32,012 bases of DNA from an uncultured Lachnospiraceae bacterium. Its GTDB lineage: Bacteria > Bacillota > Clostridia > Lachnospirales > Lachnospiraceae. Shown piece after piece: positions 18,500-25,897 of this stretch. The translations under genes and the position numbers were made by a program. The stretch lies in NCBI GenBank assembly GCA_946614165.1, contig CAMOGQ010000032.1, positions 1 to 32,012 of the forward strand, in the 5' to 3' direction. A model generated the notes under the pieces. The model was not told the origin of the DNA, searched no databases, and was given only the letters and a program-made list of their open reading frames with translations. How positions within the stretch are numbered: the stretch's first letter is position 1; each line of letters starts with the position of its first letter.

Positions 18500-19366
18500 A
18501 TGGAACTGAGAACAGCAGCTTCCCCCAGGGACGTGAAGCACTACACCACAGAGAGACTCAGAGAAGAGTTTCTTGCAGAGCACCTTTTTGAAAAGGGCGA
18601 GATCAGACTGATCTACAGCCACATCGACAGGATCATCTTCGGCGCCGCCGTGCCCGGAGAGGAGCCCCTGAAGCTGGAAGCGGGGGACGAGCTCCGCGCA
18701 AAGTATTTCCTGGAGAGACGGGAAATGGGCATGATCAACATCGGCGGCCCCGGCAAAGTCACAGCCGACGGCACGGTCTATGAGATCGCATCCAGGGACG
18801 GCCTCTACATCGGCATGGGCACAAAGGACATCTTCTTTGCCAGCGACGATCCGGAAAACCCCGCCAAGTTCTATATCTGCTCCGGCCCTGCCCACAGGAC
18901 CTGCCCCACAAAGCGCGTTCTGGCAGAAGGCCCTGCCGTCATGGACTACGACGTGGTGATCCTTCCCGAGAACAACAAGGAGCTGGGCACCCTGGAGGAT
19001 TCCAACCACAGGACCATCCACAAGTACATCCTGCCCGGCCAGGTAGAGTCCTGCCAGCTGGAGATGGGAATGACCCACCTGGAGCCCGGCAGTGTCTGGA
19101 ATACCATGCCCTGCCACACTCATGACAGACGCATGGAGGTCTATCTCTACTTTGACCTGCCCGAGGACGCTTTTGTCATGCATTACATGGGCGAGCCCAC
19201 AGAGACCAGGCACATCGTGGTCCGCAACGAGCAGGCCGTCATTTCTCCTTCCTGGTCCATCCACTCTGGCGCAGGCTCCAGGAACTATACCTTTATCTGG
19301 GGCATGGTCGGCGAGAACCAGGACTTCGACGACATGGACGAGGTCCGCATGCAGGATCTGATGTAA
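18500..19366 (+). CDS. kduI: 5-keto-4-deoxyuronate isomerase
   Basis: Isomerises 5-keto-4-deoxyuronate to 2,5-diketo-3-deoxygluconate. The cupin-fold zinc site is intact: His206 and His208 in CHTHDRRME, Glu213, and His255 in SWSIHSG. These match Escherichia coli His196, His198, Glu203 and His245 with a constant offset of 10. The length of 288 is close to the usual 278. AAGGAG overlaps the end of GH28 and serves ATG 18500. A structured spacer of 153 bases follows before kduD. Confidence 0.95.
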   Translation: MELRTAASPRDVKHYTTERLREEFLAEHLFEKGEIRLIYSHIDRIIFGAAVPGEEPLKLEAGDELRAKYFLERREMGMINIGGPGKVTADGTVYEIASRDGLYIGMGTKDIFFASDDPENPAKFYICSGPAHRTCPTKRVLAEGPAVMDYDVVILPENNKELGTLEDSNHRTIHKYILPGQVESCQLEMGMTHLEPGSVWNTMPCHTHDRRMEVYLYFDLPEDAFVMHYMGEPTETRHIVVRNEQAVISPSWSIHSGAGSRNYTFIWGMVGENQDFDDMDEVRMQDLM

Positions 19367-19369
19367 GTA

Positions 19370-19473
19370 AAGCGGCGGCTGCCTGATCCGGGCCCTGTCC
19401 GGACCGGGCGCTGCTTCAATAAAAAAGTCAAAAGAAAAAGTATTCCGCAGGGGGACGGGACATTGCCCTGCGG
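19370..19473 (+). other. Structured spacer between kduI and kduD (two RNA hairpins)
   Basis: AAGCGGCG (19370-19377) pairs with CGCTGCTT (19410-19417) around a GC-rich inner palindrome. Further on, CCGCAGGG (19445-19452) pairs with CCCTGCGG (19466-19473). No T-run follows either hairpin, so they are not ordinary terminators; mRNA processing or stabilising elements are possible. Confidence 0.45.
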
Positions 19474-19519
19474 ATCCCGGGGAGGGATGATTTTCAATGG
19501 CCCGAAAGGAGTATTTATC

Positions 19520-20383
19520 ATGGGAATGATGGAAAAATTCAGAGTCGACGGTAAGGTGGCATGGATCACAGGCGCATCCTACGGCCTGGGTCTTGCCTAT
19601 GCAACTGCCCTTGCAGAGATGGGCGCAAAGATCGTTTTCAACGACATCAACCAGGATCTGGTAGACAGAGGTCTGAACGAGTATAAGAAGCTGGGCCTGG
19701 AAGTATACGGCGCTGTCTGCGACGTTACAAACGAAGAGCAGATCAATGCTTTCGTAAAGGACGTGGAAGAGAAGGTCGGCACCATCGACATTCTGATCAA
19801 CAACGCAGGCATTATCAAGAGGATCCCCATGATCGAGATGACGGCAGCTCAGTGGAACCAGGTCATCAACGTTGACCTGACAGGTCCTTTTCTCTGCTCC
19901 AAGGCAGTTCTGCCCGGAATGATCAAAAAGGGCAGCGGCAAGATCATCAACGCCTGCTCCATGATGAGCGAACTGGGCCGTGAGACCGTATCCGCATACG
20001 CAGCAGCCAAGGGCGGCCTGAAGATGCTGACCAAGAACATCTGCTCCGAATACGGCCAGTACAACATCCAGTGCAACGCCATCGGCCCCGGCTACATCGC
20101 CACCCCTCAGACAGCACCCCTTCGTGCAAAGCAGGCCGACGGTTCCATGCATCCCTTCGACCGTTTCATCCGTTCCAAGACCCCCGCTCAGAGATGGGGC
20201 AAGACCGAGGACCTGATGGGCCTTGCAGTATTCCTTTCCTCTCCCGCATCTGACTTCATCAACGGTCAGGTCATCTACATCGACGGCGGCATCCTTGCCT
20301 ATCTTGGTCAGGACCCCAGCCAGCTGGATGAGAGCAAGTTCAAGGAAGAAGAAGAGCAGGATATCAAGGTCATCGACGAATGA
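19520..20383 (+). CDS. kduD: 2-keto-3-deoxy-D-gluconate dehydrogenase (2,5-diketo-3-deoxygluconate reductase)
   Basis: Reduces 2,5-diketo-3-deoxygluconate to KDG with NAD(P)H. A classical short-chain dehydrogenase: TGASYGLG (residues 17-24), NNAG (94-97), and the catalytic Y160-x3-K164 (SAYAAAKGG) with a serine near 147-150. At 287 residues it is longer than E. coli KduD (about 253): it has an insertion after the PGYIATPQT loop and an acidic C-terminal tail. ATG 19520 is preceded by GAAAGGAG at 8 bases; upstream in-frame starts lie in the hairpin spacer. Its codon use is more biased (many GCA, GTA, CGT, CTT) than in the upstream operon genes. The RpiB-like gene follows 17 bases later. Confidence 0.9.
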   Translation: MGMMEKFRVDGKVAWITGASYGLGLAYATALAEMGAKIVFNDINQDLVDRGLNEYKKLGLEVYGAVCDVTNEEQINAFVKDVEEKVGTIDILINNAGIIKRIPMIEMTAAQWNQVINVDLTGPFLCSKAVLPGMIKKGSGKIINACSMMSELGRETVSAYAAAKGGLKMLTKNICSEYGQYNIQCNAIGPGYIATPQTAPLRAKQADGSMHPFDRFIRSKTPAQRWGKTEDLMGLAVFLSSPASDFINGQVIYIDGGILAYLGQDPSQLDESKFKEEEEQDIKVIDE

Positions 20384-20400
20384 TCCGAAAGGAGTAATGA

Positions 20401-21039
20401 ATGAGAATCGCACTGATCAACGAGAACAGCCAGGCCGCCAAGAATGCCATCATCGAAAAGGCCCTGAAGAAGGTAGTGGAGCCCATGGGCTTCGAAGTCA
20501 GGAACTACGGCATGTATGCGGCGGATGACGCCGCCCAGCTGACCTATGTCCAGAACGGCATCCTGGCAGCGGTCCTGTTAAATTCCGGCGCGGCAGATTT
20601 TGTCATCACCGGCTGCGGAACAGGCGAAGGCGCCATGCTGGCCCTCAATTCCTTCCCCGGCGTGATCTGCGGCCATGTGGCAAATCCCCTGGATGCCTAC
20701 ACCTTTGCCCAGATCAATGACGGCAACGCCATCTCCATTCCCTTCGCTCTGGGCTTCGGCTGGGGCGGAGACCTGAACCTGGAATACATCTTCGAGAAGC
20801 TCTTCAGCGAGCCCTTCGGCGGCGGCTATCCTAAGGAAAGAGTCGTTCCGGAGCAGAGGAACAAGAAGATTCTGGACGGCGTCAGAGCCGCAGCTTTCAG
20901 GCCCCTTGCGGATATCCTGAAGGATCTGGATCCGGAACTGGTAAAGGGCGCCTTCGCAGGCGAGCATTTCGACGAGCTTTTCTTTGCGGACTGCAAGGAC
21001 GCTGCTCTGGCTGACCTGGTCAGGGAACTGAAAAAATAA
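20401..21039 (+). CDS. RpiB/LacA/LacB-family sugar isomerase (DhuI-like candidate)
   Basis: A 212-residue member of the RpiB/LacAB isomerase family. The core signature is VITGCGTGEGAMLALN, with Cys72 at the usual catalytic cysteine position, and then NDGNAISIP. It is longer than RpiB (about 150) owing to a C-terminal extension after residue 130. In streptococci a family member called DhuI isomerises 4-deoxy-5-keto-uronate and is paired with the dehydrogenase DhuD. Here the gene follows kduD directly (GGAG upstream, 17-base spacer), so the same reaction is likely. That would duplicate KduI, which is in the same operon. Another uronate or ketose isomerisation is possible. Confidence 0.78.
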   Translation: MRIALINENSQAAKNAIIEKALKKVVEPMGFEVRNYGMYAADDAAQLTYVQNGILAAVLLNSGAADFVITGCGTGEGAMLALNSFPGVICGHVANPLDAYTFAQINDGNAISIPFALGFGWGGDLNLEYIFEKLFSEPFGGGYPKERVVPEQRNKKILDGVRAAAFRPLADILKDLDPELVKGAFAGEHFDELFFADCKDAALADLVRELKK

Positions 21040-21050
21040 AAAAGAGAAAG

Positions 21051-21083
21051 CTTCCGGCGGAAGAGATTTCCGCCGGAAGTTTT
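21051..21083 (+). terminator. Hairpin with short T-run between the RpiB-like gene and kdgK
   Basis: CTTCCGGCGGAA pairs perfectly with TTCCGCCGGAAG across a 5-base loop, followed by only four T residues. It may stop part of the transcripts, lowering kdgK relative to upstream genes, or protect the 3' end of the upstream mRNA. Confidence 0.65.
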
Positions 21084-21106
21084 GCGACTCAAACAGGGAG
21101 GGAAAG

Positions 21107-22153
21107 ATGAGATTTATTACTGCAGGCGAGGTCATGCTGCGGCTGACGCCTCCCAACTATGAAAAGATCCGTATGGCCGGCAGCTTCGAAGCTTCCTACG
21201 GCGGAAGTGAAGCCAACATCGCTCTGGCCCTTGCCAACCTGGGCATAGACTCCTCCTTCTTCAGCGTGGTGCCGGACAACTCCATCGGAAAGAGCGCCAT
21301 CCGCTGGCTCCGTGCCAACGACGTGCACTGTACACCGGTGATCCGGGCTACCCCGGAGGAGGCCCCCACTCACAGGCTGGGTACCTACTACCTGGAGACC
21401 GGCTACGGGATCCGGGCTTCCAAGGTCACCTATGACAGAAAGCATTCCGCCATCACAGAGTACGATTTCTCCAAGGTGGATCTGGATGCCCTGCTTAAGG
21501 ACTTTGACTGGCTGCACCTGTCCGGCATTACGCCGGCTCTTGGCCCCGGCTGCGCGGACCTGATCATGCGCATGCTGCAGACCGCCAGAAAGCAGGGCAT
21601 GACCATCAGCTTCGACGGCAACTTCCGGGCCACCCTCTGGACCTGGGAGGAGGCAAGAGACTTCTGCACAAAGTGCCTGCCCTACGTGGATGTCCTCTTC
21701 GGCATCGAGCCCTATCATCTGTGGAAGGATGAAGAGGACCATTCCAAAGGAGACTGGAAGGACGGGATCCCCCACCAGCCCGGCTTTGGCGACGAAGACC
21801 TGGTATTCAGGAAATTCGTGGAGAAGTTCCCCAACATCAAGTGCATTGCCCGCCACGTCCGCTATGTCCACAGCGGCAGCGAGAACAGCCTCAAGGCCTA
21901 TCTCTGGTATGAGGGCAGGACCTGGGAGAGCAAGCTCTTTACCTTCACCATCCTGGACAGGGTGGGCGGCGGCGACGCTTTTGCCAGCGGCCTGATCTAC
22001 GCCATGATGCAGGGCTACGAGCCCCAGGAGATGGTGGACTTCGCAGTGGCCAGTTCGGCCCTCAAGCACACCATCCACGGCGACGGCAACATCACCGACG
22101 ATGCGAACGCCATCCGGAGCCTTATGAACATGAATTTCGAGATACAGAGGTAA
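21107..22153 (+). CDS. kdgK: 2-keto-3-deoxygluconate kinase
   Basis: Phosphorylates KDG to KDPG, joining both arms of the locus. It is a PfkB-family ribokinase fold: GGSEANIALALANLG near residue 32-46 and the anion-hole/catalytic motif DRVGGGDAFASG near 285-296, with its second Asp as catalytic base. The length of 348 exceeds the usual 310-320 because of an insertion around 205-235 (HLWKDEEDHSKGDWKDG). ATG 21107 follows GGGAGG. It is the last gene of the operon. KDPG aldolase (Eda), the next enzyme, is absent from the window and must be elsewhere. Confidence 0.9.
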   Translation: MRFITAGEVMLRLTPPNYEKIRMAGSFEASYGGSEANIALALANLGIDSSFFSVVPDNSIGKSAIRWLRANDVHCTPVIRATPEEAPTHRLGTYYLETGYGIRASKVTYDRKHSAITEYDFSKVDLDALLKDFDWLHLSGITPALGPGCADLIMRMLQTARKQGMTISFDGNFRATLWTWEEARDFCTKCLPYVDVLFGIEPYHLWKDEEDHSKGDWKDGIPHQPGFGDEDLVFRKFVEKFPNIKCIARHVRYVHSGSENSLKAYLWYEGRTWESKLFTFTILDRVGGGDAFASGLIYAMMQGYEPQEMVDFAVASSALKHTIHGDGNITDDANAIRSLMNMNFEIQR

Positions 22154-22193: not shown

Positions 22194-22231
22194 AACAGGC
22201 CGCAGGGGTTCTTCCTGCGGCCTGTTCGTTT
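22194..22231. terminator. Hairpin terminator between convergent kdgK and the repeat-protein operon
   Basis: AACAGGCCGCAGG and CCTGCGGCCTGTT form a perfect 13-bp stem with a 7-base loop. TTTTC follows on the minus strand and a weak CGTTTC on the plus strand. Confidence 0.8.
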
Positions 22232-22258: not shown

Positions 22259-22606
22259 TTATTTCTTTTTGAAGTGGACTTCCGGCATGGCCAGGTTGTC
22301 ATAGGAGATGCCCGAGACCTTGTGGTCCTTCTTTTCGGGCTCTGTATCCACCTTACCGGTATGGACTTCGGGGACGGCCAGGCTGTCGGTCTCCACCGAA
22401 TATTCGCCGGCGCCCTCTTTCGCTTCTTCCTTTTTCTTCAGATGGATCTCGGGCATGGCAAGGTTATCGGATTCCACAGAGACGGTATTCTTTCCCTGTC
22501 CCGCATCCCCGGTCTTTTCATCCTTCTTTTTCTTCAGGTGGACCGCTTCCAGGCCCTTTTCAATTGTTTCTTCTATCACTTCCAGGGTGTGTTTCAGATC
22601 GCTCAT
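22259..22606 (-). CDS. Small charged repeat protein with LA(M/V)PE(I/V)H motifs, unknown function
   Basis: I do not recognise this 115-residue protein. After an amphipathic N-terminal helix (LKHTLEVIEETIEKGLEAV, about 4-22) it carries a repeated unit: SDNLAMPEIHLKKK (46-59), TDSLAVPEVHTGK (73-85) and YDNLAMPEVHFKKK (102-115). A partial copy, AVHLKKKK, lies at 21-28. The linkers are rich in Lys, Glu and Gly and look disordered. There is no signal peptide or membrane segment. ATG 22606 follows AAAGGAGA at about 7 bases; the frame continues upstream into gltS but without a better start. It lies 28 bases after gltS with no terminator, so it belongs to the TAXI-GltS operon. A regulatory or scaffold role for the transporter is a guess. 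Confidence 0.72.
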   Translation of the reverse strand: MSDLKHTLEVIEETIEKGLEAVHLKKKKDEKTGDAGQGKNTVSVESDNLAMPEIHLKKKEEAKEGAGEYSVETDSLAVPEVHTGKVDTEPEKKDHKVSGISYDNLAMPEVHFKKK

Positions 22607-22634
22607 CTGACTTCTCCTTTCTCTTTGAGGCTGC

Positions 22635-23825
22635 TTATACAAGGTTAATAAAGAAGGTGATCACAAGACTGTTGATAAAGTCGGCAAAGAGCGAACCGAC
22701 GATGGGGATCAGGATGTAGGCCTTGATGGAAGGGGCGAACTTGTCGCAGATGGCCTGCATGTTGGCCATGGCGTTGGGGGTGGCGCCCATGCCGAAGCCG
22801 CAGGTGCCCGCCGTAATGACCGCCGCGTCATAGTTGCGTCCCATGACATTGAAGATCACGAAATTGGCGTACAGGTACATGAAGATGGTCTGGCCGATCA
22901 GGAGGATCAGAAGGGGCAGGGCCAGCTCGGCCAGCTGCCAGATCTTCAGGGTGATCATGGCAATGCCCAGGAAAAGAGAGAGCATGATGCCGCCGATATC
23001 GTTGATCTCGCCCATATGGATCTCAAACCAGCCGGTATATTCTCCCACGTTCCGGATGACGGCCGCCACGATCATGGCCCCGATATAGATGGGGAAGGTC
23101 ATACCTGTCATGGACAGGAAGTAGGAGACCAGGGTGCCGGCGCCCACCGCCAGGACCAGCTGATAGGTGGCGGGAGCGTAGTTGCTCAGGTTCCTTACAT
23201 GGTGGGCTTCGTCCTCCACCAGAAGGCTGTCGTCATCTGTGACCGCTGTCTTTAAGAGATCGTATTTCAGGATCAGACGGTTGGCAATGGGACCGCCGAT
23301 CAGGGAGCCGGAGATCAGGCCGTAGGTGGCCGCCGCGGTGCAGACCGTAGTGGCCCCCACAAGGCCGAAGTCCTCCAGGACCGGGCCGAAGGCGCCTGCC
23401 GTGCCATGTCCGCCCACCATGGGGATGGAACCGGTGCACAGGCCCACCAGGGCGTCCAGACTGAGGACTTTTGAAAGGCCCACTGCCAGGATGTTCTGGC
23501 CGATGATCAGGATGATGACCAGGACCAGGAAGAGCAGAAGGGACTTTCCGCCGGTCTTCAGGATCTTAAGGTTGGCCTGGAAGCCTACAGAGGTAAAGAA
23601 GAAGACCATGCAGACTTCACGCAGAGTATCGGTAAAGGTGACCTCCATGATGCCTGCCACGTAGAGGATGCAGGTCAGGATGGCGAAAAGCAGTCCCCCC
23701 ACCACGGGAGCGGGAATGCAGAAGCGCTCCAGAAAGGAGACTTTCCTTCGGATGACAGCGCCCAGAAGCAGGGCGATGACGGCCACTGCCAGGGTCTGAT
23801 ACATGTTCAGAGTGATCGAAAGCAT
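22635..23825 (-). CDS. gltS: Sodium/glutamate symporter GltS
   Basis: A 396-residue membrane protein of the ESS family, which imports glutamate with sodium. It has about ten helices arranged as two inverted halves. The paired re-entrant loop motifs are visible: MVGGHGTAGAFGP (about 137-149) and CGFGMGATPNAMANM (about 337-351). It sits between a TAXI solute-binding lipoprotein (12 bases upstream) and the small repeat protein (28 bases downstream) in one unit. GltS does not normally use a binding protein, so this pairing is notable. AAGGAGGTG lies just upstream of the start. The substrate is probably glutamate or a related anion. Confidence 0.93.
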   Translation of the reverse strand: MLSITLNMYQTLAVAVIALLLGAVIRRKVSFLERFCIPAPVVGGLLFAILTCILYVAGIMEVTFTDTLREVCMVFFFTSVGFQANLKILKTGGKSLLLFLVLVIILIIGQNILAVGLSKVLSLDALVGLCTGSIPMVGGHGTAGAFGPVLEDFGLVGATTVCTAAATYGLISGSLIGGPIANRLILKYDLLKTAVTDDDSLLVEDEAHHVRNLSNYAPATYQLVLAVGAGTLVSYFLSMTGMTFPIYIGAMIVAAVIRNVGEYTGWFEIHMGEINDIGGIMLSLFLGIAMITLKIWQLAELALPLLILLIGQTIFMYLYANFVIFNVMGRNYDAAVITAGTCGFGMGATPNAMANMQAICDKFAPSIKAYILIPIVGSLFADFINSLVITFFINLV

Positions 23826-23837
23826 TGTTCCACCTCC

Positions 23838-24803
23838 TTACTTTCCGATGCTGACGCCGGCTTCTTCATAATAGGCCGCCGCGCCGGGATGGAAGGGAAT
23901 GGGGATATCCTGGACCGCGCTTTCCTCCGTCAGAGTAAAATCCACGGGGACTGCCAGCTGGAGCTGGTCCGCATTTTTAAAGAGAGCGGCGGTGATCTTC
24001 TTAACGTCCCCTTCCGGGAGCTTATTGCTGGCCAGAAGGACGGCCTTTACGCCCACGGTCTTCACGTCCTTGTTCATGCCGGTATAGGTGCCGGCGGGGA
24101 CGGTATAGGTGGTATAGAAATCATAGGTGCCGATCAGGGATTTTCTCTCGTCGCCGGTTATGGGCAGCAGGCGTATGTCCACCTGCTTGGCCAGCTCCTC
24201 CACCACGGTGGTCCGGACGCCTGCCGTGCAGAAGAAGGCGTCGATCTCCCCGTTCTGCAGGGCCTTTGCCGCGTCGGTATAGTTGAGGTTGACTTCCTCC
24301 ACCAGCTTTTCGTTGAGGCCGTAGGCCAGAAGGATCTGGACGGCGTTGACTTCGGAGCCGGATTCCGCTTCGCCCACGCTGACTTTCTTTCCCCGCAGGT
24401 CGCGGATGGATTTGATGCCGGAATCCTTTCTGGTGATGAACTGGCATACTTCCGTATAAAGTCCCGCCACGGCCCCGTAGCCGGTCAGAGCCTTCCCACT
24501 GAAGGCGTCCGTGCCGTTCCAGGCGGAGCTGATCACGTCGGTCTGGGAAATGGCCAGCTGGATATAATCCTCCGACATAAGACGGAGATTGGCGGCGGAG
24601 CCTGCCGTGACCTTGACCTCGATCTCCATGGGATCTTCCTGGGAAGCAAGAAGACCCGCAAAGGTCTGTCCGAAGGTGTTATAGTTGCCGCCCACGCCTG
24701 CCGTGCCGAAGCGGATGGCCTTCCCTGTGCCCCCGCAGCCCGAAAGCAGCAGGCAGAGACAGAGGAGACAGGCAGCGGCTGTGCCATAGCTGATTCTTTT
24801 CAT
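23838..24803 (-). CDS. TAXI-family solute-binding lipoprotein
   Basis: A 321-residue extracellular binding protein of the TRAP-associated TAXI family. The signal peptide (about 1-22) ends in the lipobox LSGC, so Cys23 is the lipid anchor. The mature part opens with the family block IRFGTAGVGGNYNTFGQ (about 30-46) and has VSVGEAESGSEVNA (about 142-155). TAXI proteins of known specificity bind glutamate, glutamine or related acids. No TRAP membrane subunit (DctQ/DctM type) is nearby; instead gltS starts 12 bases downstream. I infer that it captures glutamate-like substrates for GltS. AAGGAGGGC precedes the ATG. It is the first gene of a three-gene operon. Confidence 0.9.
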   Translation of the reverse strand: MKRISYGTAAACLLCLCLLLSGCGGTGKAIRFGTAGVGGNYNTFGQTFAGLLASQEDPMEIEVKVTAGSAANLRLMSEDYIQLAISQTDVISSAWNGTDAFSGKALTGYGAVAGLYTEVCQFITRKDSGIKSIRDLRGKKVSVGEAESGSEVNAVQILLAYGLNEKLVEEVNLNYTDAAKALQNGEIDAFFCTAGVRTTVVEELAKQVDIRLLPITGDERKSLIGTYDFYTTYTVPAGTYTGMNKDVKTVGVKAVLLASNKLPEGDVKKITAALFKNADQLQLAVPVDFTLTEESAVQDIPIPFHPGAAAYYEEAGVSIGK

Positions 24804-25000: not shown

Positions 25001-25897
25001 ATGTATGTGATCAGCAGATGCCTGGCAGGATATCCCTGCCGCTACGACGGAAAAAGCAAGGGAGTCCCGGAGATCATGGAGCTTGCAAAGAGGGAGGAGG
25101 TCCTCCTGGTCTGTCCCGAGGTCCTGGGAGGGCTTCCCACCCCCCGCATTCCCAGCGAGATCCGGGAGGGCAGGGTCCTGAACCGGGAAGGAGAGGACGT
25201 GACGGAGGCCTTTTTGCGGGGAGCGGAAAAGACCATGGCCCTCTGCAGGGAAAAGGGCTGCAGCGCTGCTATCCTGAAGGCGGATTCCCCCTCCTGCGGC
25301 ATCGGAAGGATCCACAACGGCCTCTTTGACGGGGGATATGTTTCTGCAGACGGGATCTTTGCGGATATGGTCAGAAAGGCGGGGATTCCTGCCGTTACGG
25401 AAAAGGAATATCTGGAAAGCATAGGGAAAGAGGCCGGGGCAGAAGAAAAGACAGGGCTTAAAGTCATCCGGGCAGAGTCTCTTGCCCACAGGGCCGGGGC
25501 TTTCTATGTCCGGATCCAGGGCATGGGCCGGGCCCATCATATCTCCCTGGAAGCTGAGTTCGACGACCACGACGGGGAGGGCACAGACTATATCCTTATA
25601 ACGGATGACAGCTTTCCCATAGCCACCTGCCGCTTCTATGAACTGGGGCAGGGAGAAGCCATGATCGGCAGGGTGGTGGTCCTGCCGGAATACCGTGGGC
25701 AGGGTCTTGGAAGAAAGGTGGTCCTGGAGGCAGAAAAATGGCTCTCCGACCTGGGCTTTGAAAAAGCCGTGGTGGAGAGCCGGGACGTGGCTGTGGATTT
25801 TTATAAAAAGCTGGGCTACCGGGTCACGGACGGGACCCTTCTGCACGGGCCAACCTTTGACTGCATCCGGATGGAAAAAGACCTTTCCAGGTCCTGA
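25001..25897 (+). CDS. DUF523 (TudS-like)-GNAT acetyltransferase fusion
   Basis: Two domains in one 298-residue chain. Residues 1-145 are a DUF523 domain: SRCLAGYPCRYDG (Cys7, Cys13), CPEVLGGLPTPR (38-49) and KADSPSCG with Cys99. Three such cysteines hold the iron-sulfur cluster in the thiouracil desulfidase TudS, a member of this family. Residues 153-298 are a GNAT acetyltransferase with the acetyl-CoA loop YRGQGLG (231-237) and the typical DFYKKLGYR near the end. The AAGGAGGAG upstream supports ATG 25001. The gene is monocistronic, and I see no terminator before the convergent gene 5 bases away. Desulfuration is known for one family member only and is not shown here; the acetyl acceptor is unknown. 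Confidence 0.85.
   Translation: MYVISRCLAGYPCRYDGKSKGVPEIMELAKREEVLLVCPEVLGGLPTPRIPSEIREGRVLNREGEDVTEAFLRGAEKTMALCREKGCSAAILKADSPSCGIGRIHNGLFDGGYVSADGIFADMVRKAGIPAVTEKEYLESIGKEAGAEEKTGLKVIRAESLAHRAGAFYVRIQGMGRAHHISLEAEFDDHDGEGTDYILITDDSFPIATCRFYELGQGEAMIGRVVVLPEYRGQGLGRKVVLEAEKWLSDLGFEKAVVESRDVAVDFYKKLGYRVTDGTLLHGPTFDCIRMEKDLSRS

Follow-up and report, generated by a model that had tools for sequence, protein, structure and literature searches.

A TAXI-GltS locus with a conserved tandem-motif gene in an uncultured Lachnospiraceae bacterium

Before 2025, the only secondary transporters known to use a soluble binding protein were those of the TRAP and TTT types (PMC12344293). The TAXI-GltS class was then described, including TAXI neighbours of conventional size and Lachnospiraceae TAXI-GltS fusions (PMC12344293). 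Its Bordetella member BP0403 is a dimer and binds L-glutamate (dissociation constant 180 nM, measured on the isolated domain); the BP0403 gene overlaps gltS (PMC12344293). We describe here a locus of this class from the metagenome-assembled genome (MAG) of an uncultured Lachnospiraceae bacterium (GCA_946614165.1; 3.78 Mb, 288 contigs, 87.65% complete). The window, as we call the whole 32,012-nucleotide stretch analysed, comprises positions 1-32012 of contig C32 (CAMOGQ010000032.1). Its minus strand carries, in the order of transcription, a gene for a TAXI solute-binding lipoprotein (24803-23838), the sodium/glutamate symporter gene gltS (23825-22635) and a small open reading frame (ORF; 22606-22259). 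The TAXI-GltS pairing is no discovery of this work, since PMC12344293 has already published it; the window locus is a new member of that published class. The conserved tandem-motif protein encoded by the third gene appears to be a new part, and no description of it was found.

The window system resembles Bordetella pertussis BP0403/BP0402 in combining a TAXI lipoprotein with GltS, in having no TRAP membrane gene and in keeping the tyrosine and glutamine of the binding site. Unlike BP0403, the window TAXI protein has 321 residues and no N-terminal or helical domains, and its gene precedes gltS. With the TAXI-TRAP system VcGluP-VcGluQM (PMC11574862) it shares a homologous glutamate-type binding protein; the membrane part is, in contrast, a GltS of the ESS family in place of a fused TRAP permease. 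Stand-alone GltS proteins (ESS, TIGR00210) belong to the same membrane protein family, but the window system has a dedicated binding protein and a third gene, neither of which accompanies the second gltS of the same genome (L002/L127, contig C143; 41-42% identical). The conserved tandem-motif gene after gltS also sets the window apart from the systems of PMC12344293 as its text describes them, the main text of that paper mentioning neither a third gene nor a small accessory protein. Literature searches on accessory or small GltS proteins, judged by title and the start of the abstract, gave among the matches listed nothing relevant except PMC12344293; a search with motif strings, in which coverage of subscription journals was thin, found no paper.

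The binding protein and the symporter

The TAXI protein scores 289.1 bits against TIGR02122 (curated cut-off 84.35), Pfam NMT1_3 spans residues 32-316 of its 321, and PDB relatives include 1us4, 8s4j and 9ibo. A lipobox, LSGC (residues 19-22; 24738-24749, minus strand), was read by eye from the translation. As the TAXI domain begins at residue 32, the extra domains of the Bordetella type are absent and the protein is not an elongated three-domain one; that form is not required of the class, since conventional-size TAXI neighbours are also counted in it (PMC12344293). The gltS gene encodes 396 residues, and a score of 338.8 bits against TIGR00210 (curated cut-off 310.75), together with a PF03616 match (1.9e-108), places the membrane part in the ESS family. 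For an AlphaFold2 model of GltS from a close relative, the best PDB matches are the CitS elevator transporters 5a1s, 5xar and 9lsh.

A preliminary description of this stretch had placed the TAXI gene 12 bases from gltS, in the same orientation and with no terminator, and this was confirmed (23838-24803 and 22635-23825, both minus strand). The 12-nucleotide gap (23826-23837) contains the Shine-Dalgarno sequence GGAGG; the gap of 28 nucleotides between gltS and the small ORF (22607-22634) contains a Shine-Dalgarno-like sequence. No terminator-like match was found between the three genes in the terminator scan. The three such matches on the minus strand lie within gltS (two, overlapping) and within the TAXI gene (one), and both strands together hold five against 2.3 expected from shuffles.

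The same description had asked for a genome survey of TAXI-gltS adjacency, which proved to be conserved. The GltS proteins at least 63% identical to that of the window (43 distinct, full-length) form one clade (support 0.919); the set was fetched largely through a scan for the third-gene motif and was not chosen for TAXI. A TAXI gene lies directly upstream in 40 of these 43, the exceptions being L141, L219 and L220. A family scan of 150 genomes placed TAXI-gltS pairs in three distinct groups of GltS: the TAXI gene comes first in members of the window's clade (G000, G014, G120, G088) and in G053, and gltS comes first in G019, G063, G048 and G072. Natural one-chain TAXI-GltS genes are present in three genomes, namely G088, a Firmicutes MAG (L159) and a Lawsonibacter MAG (L168). 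TAXI-gltS adjacency exceeds chance. The earlier proposal of a secondary transporter with an acquired binding protein gains support from this adjacency and from the fusions, from which we infer functional coupling: TAXI and GltS very probably work together.

The TAXI-GltS fusion of G088 (L132, 3440-5546) has a transposase-like ORF beside it, after which comes another piece of a gltS 3′ end. At L114/L180 the TAXI gene matches as two separated pieces, with gltS and the motif gene apparently intact; this is an interruption or an assembly error. Three related TAXI genes without gltS (L128, L138, L139) share a context that by eye includes a multicopper-oxidase-like (laccase-domain) gene and a MATE-like gene. 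A conserved fourth gene was sought among up to three downstream ORFs of at least 100 residues per locus, judged by eye without a family search; the sole recurrent one, seen in close relatives, is a gene for a GPH/MFS-like symporter, and the other downstream genes differ.

The window TAXI protein was aligned to the PDB chain 9ibo_A, on which the VcGluP residues named in PMC11574862 land on the correct letters. The contact residues Y45, S75, Q93 and E125 of VcGluP are retained, Y45 and Q93 corresponding to window residues Y41 and Q87 (numbering checked). Y45 and Q93 are the two largest contributors in VcGluP, and Y200 and M201 contribute little (PMC11574862). Judged from these residues, the ligand of the window system is probably glutamate. 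The host genome has a single TAXI gene over the cut-off and two gltS genes.

The third gene and its link to one GltS clade

The third small component of the preliminary description is a real gene (22259-22606, minus strand). It had been listed as an ORF at 22259-22642 with a TTG start; the better start is the ATG at 22606, after AGGAGAAG, which gives a protein of 115 residues. Three copies of a motif with the consensus roughly [YF]DN[LV]A[IMV]PE[IV]H are present, namely DNLAMPEIH (22442-22468), DSLAVPEVH (22361-22387, from the translation) and DNLAMPEVH (22274-22300), all on the minus strand, and the C-terminus ends in lysines that form a basic tail. Ten of 50 other genomes of the genus match the small ORF, each time directly downstream of gltS, and listing the ORFs downstream of gltS without a motif search revealed relatives in further loci. 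The 37 distinct small proteins collected have 54-115 residues, and their genes start 12-181 nucleotides after gltS; by regular expression 31 contain two motif copies, three contain three and three contain one. The nonsynonymous rate (dN) is below the synonymous rate (dS) in every compared pair across three groups (0.09-0.16 and 0.30-0.64 in the window group; dS is often saturated in the others), except for the near-identical pair L107-L163 (dS 0, dN 0.01). In the last motif copy every one of the four Ala codons and of the four Pro codons is used, and the constraint therefore acts on the protein. The small gene is thus conserved and under purifying selection.

The protein belongs to no known family among those searched. 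With 39 third-gene members there was no NCBIfam match at an E-value of 0.01 and no match to PDB chains at 1, and Pfam gave three families, one member each (best E-value 0.0012), none of them shared. MetS and GlnK are small transporter partners whose genes lie beside the transporter gene, as the third gene does here. The former is a membrane peptide, the latter a folded protein; unlike these, the window protein is a tandem-motif protein and is predicted to be disordered, and its score against the MetS family of NCBIfam (13.9 bits) is below the cut-off of 70. A metal-binding role for the Glu and His of the motif is unlikely, as some copies (L202, L159, L168, L225) have no His.

The link to GltS was measured at loci fetched by GltS search alone, the window excluded, the motif being scored up to 480 nucleotides downstream. 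It follows 18 of 19 clade gltS genes (family 3/4, genus 12/12, class 3/3) and 0 of 37 others (family 15, genus 5, class 17), with 0 of 56 in the antisense control; Fisher's p is about 9e-14, a value that takes related clade members as independent. The count omits 16 family-scan matches below 60 bits, three genus matches below 32 bits, an out-of-clade gltS with about 150 nucleotides of downstream contig (L032/L137) and two genus pieces cut at the 3′ end (G181:C38, G194:C90). L121, with 276 nucleotides, was retained, and the class search took matches with E-values up to 1e-100. The motif expression was written after the family and genus loci had been seen and fixed before the class sample (391 genomes), which has clade GltS in two other families and is therefore the fairest test. 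In this sample each of the three clade gltS genes is preceded by TAXI and followed by the motif, which is diverged in one of the three loci.

A DNA-pattern scan of species genomes gave 50 stretches, 46 of which lie 36-338 nucleotides downstream of the gltS end on the same strand (L156, L162 and L164 were placed after extending the stretch). About seven matches are expected by chance in 257 Gb, both strands (calculated by hand with equal base frequencies), and L155, L170 and L187 were taken as such. L193 is a true motif copy that is unlinked: in G201, the genome it belongs to, a clade TAXI-gltS (76% identical) lies on a different contig, with no motif downstream. The possibility that the motif is a general, genome-wide tag was rejected: a relaxed DNA pattern matched four times in the 150 family genomes, three of these at gltS, and a reversed control pattern gave no match there. 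The small gene also follows gltS where no TAXI gene is adjacent (INDEPENDENCE from TAXI), in L141 (G017), in Faecalibacterium prausnitzii APC923/61-1 (L160/L219) and in a Mogibacterium MAG (L167/L220); it thus tracks GltS rather than TAXI. TAXI-gltS-motif-type loci were seen in the gut bacteria Faecalibacterium, Roseburia and Anaerostipes. This third, apparently undescribed gene, which tracks one GltS clade, usually accompanies the TAXI-GltS form in gut Firmicutes. We note that L166, labelled as uncultured Bacteroides, has a Firmicutes-type TAXI-gltS-motif locus, and a mislabelled or mixed bin is suspected.

The motif is also found joined to enzymes. Directly after gltS, where these loci have no small gene, it forms the N-terminus of an M20-family hydrolase (L173 and L156/L215) or of a NUDIX protein (G014 = L129/L192); in the degenerate form ENLAFPEF it stands in the same position at the N-terminus of an isochorismatase-domain protein (G120 = L130). 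By eye, these enzyme types are not recurrent next genes at other loci. The fusions suggest that the motif may act as a tag that brings proteins to a shared partner, of which GltS is the simplest candidate.

Proposed mechanism and alternatives

Our reading of the operon, to which we assign a probability of about 0.68, is that it encodes a Na+/glutamate symporter of the TAXI-GltS class that depends on its binding protein and has a further conserved partner. The TAXI lipoprotein, anchored outside the membrane, would capture glutamate or a close analogue and pass it to GltS, which would import it together with Na+ through an elevator movement. The small protein, probably disordered and cytoplasmic, with tandem motifs and a basic tail, would partner this GltS clade; its role may be to regulate the transporter or to tether enzymes to GltS. 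Most of these proteins have two motif copies, a number that would match a GltS dimer, with contact perhaps via the clade-specific central loop. A functional partnership between the small protein and GltS appears likely, and the odds of direct binding are a little short of even.

Twenty GltS positions are clade-specific (at least 95% constant in the 43 clade proteins, at most 15% alike in 21 others). They include C72, V74, Q83, N85, G272 and N275, and, in the hydrophilic central loop (residues 198-216; 23178-23234, minus strand), E204, H209, R211 and Y216. The loop is taken as cytoplasmic from the presumed GltS topology and from the N-terminal TAXI fusions, which would place the GltS N-terminus outside. 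It is a candidate docking site and should be regarded as a lead, since the loop is also conserved in G088, where no motif protein was found. An AlphaFold2 chain running from gltS through the stop codon into the small protein gives a confident GltS part, with scores mostly of 80-95 in its blocks and 52-65 in the central loop (predicted template modelling score, pTM, 0.76). In a model of the natural L159 TAXI-GltS fusion both parts fold (mean predicted local distance difference test score, pLDDT, 83.4; pTM 0.53), with unreliable relative placement; an earlier alignment for the TAXI-GltS model (A3) was dropped because its TAXI rows were badly placed.

In a bolder version the small protein would be a new kind of transporter partner. 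Disordered and cytoplasmic, this adaptor would bind the two protomers of the clade's GltS with its tandem A-x-P-E motifs and either switch GltS or recruit enzymes to it; in some species the adaptor would have become an enzyme tag, the substrate being processed at the membrane. We hold this version to be doubtful, if conceivable. This would, if true, be a novel means of controlling or coupling uptake in gut bacteria, in which transporters carry short tandem-motif adaptors and some of the adaptors are naturally fused to enzymes. For such a scheme the survey supplies a defined peptide motif and a specific candidate partner.

Several points weigh against a TAXI-GltS symporter with a third partner. 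Functional TAXI-GltS coupling awaits experimental verification (PMC12344293), and Y200 and M201 of VcGluP are changed in the window TAXI protein. The clade members are related, so that the counts are not independent. The constancy of A-x-P-E in all 37 small proteins is partly by construction, since the regular expression and the DNA patterns demand Ala, Pro and Glu; A-x-P-E is also present in the 16 loci first listed without a motif search (the window, 12 genus loci, L129, L130 and L141). No motif was found in G088, which has a clade TAXI-GltS fusion. G102 encodes an orphan 50-residue motif protein (L221, 4896-5048, minus strand) in a genome with no GltS; it is possibly a remnant of the operon. 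The motif-fused enzymes do not make up one glutamate pathway, and in the AlphaFold2 chain the small-protein tail is disordered and undocked (pLDDT about 25).

The undocked tail, the orphan protein of G102, the unlinked copy of G201 and the functional diversity of the tagged enzymes would all suit an arrangement in which TAXI-GltS is the entire transporter and the small protein has a separate job, for example in binding to some unrelated hub in the cytoplasm, and shares no more than its expression with gltS. This is unlikely, as the motif tracks one GltS clade (18/19 against 0/37) and its relaxed pattern has a single match away from gltS loci across the 150 family genomes. The M20-family fusions directly after TAXI-gltS might instead indicate that the ligand is a glutamate conjugate, processed by the partner or by a fused hydrolase. 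These fusions are, however, limited to two closely related loci, the other fused enzymes do not fit, and the main VcGluP glutamate contacts are retained in the window protein; we consider a conjugate very unlikely.

It is also conceivable that the TAXI protein has no partner, or works with a TRAP permease encoded elsewhere, its position before gltS being coincidental. The related genus TAXI genes without gltS (L128, L138, L139) have no recognisable transporter neighbour, and a permease could be missing from a genome that is 87.65% complete. A DctM profile search of this whole genome gave no match in the window, in line with the preliminary description, which had noted no DctQ/DctM-type gene there (DctQ was not searched as a family). 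The one strong match (390.3 bits, contig C46) has as neighbours, judged by eye, DctQ and two DctP-like genes, and two weak matches slightly above the cut-off (30.4 and 24.7 bits) look by eye like other transporters. A dedicated TRAP permease elsewhere had been named as grounds for abandoning the pairing; none of the TAXI type was found in the genome at its stated completeness, and a permease elsewhere as the true partner is thus unsupported, the only strong DctM match being of the DctP type. With the adjacency conserved and natural fusions known, a coincidental position is extremely unlikely.

Surroundings of the locus

The closest named matches at the TAXI-gltS locus are Lachnospiraceae-labelled, namely UBA3287 (L182; GltS 100% identical) and SRR1222429_bin.76 (L198; 95%). 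The second gltS of the genome has RraA-like and LysR-type-regulator-like genes as neighbours, judged by eye. Two genomes from the class sample, G560 (L234, L240, L241) and G491 (L235, L239, L242), each have three gltS genes in tandem.

A perfect 12-bp inverted repeat with a 7-nucleotide loop (22195-22225) was read in the sequence between the third gene and a convergent sugar-kinase gene. It is possibly a shared terminator of both genes, a function that is a guess because the terminator scan did not list the repeat. The convergent cluster on the plus strand (18500-22153) comprises four genes assigned by Pfam, for a KduI-type isomerase, a short-chain dehydrogenase, an RpiB/LacAB-type isomerase and a PfkB kinase, and is likely a uronate (ketodeoxygluconate) pathway. 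On the other side, divergent from the operon, a plus-strand gene (25001-25897) encodes a 2-thiouracil desulfurase domain fused with a GNAT acetyltransferase domain.

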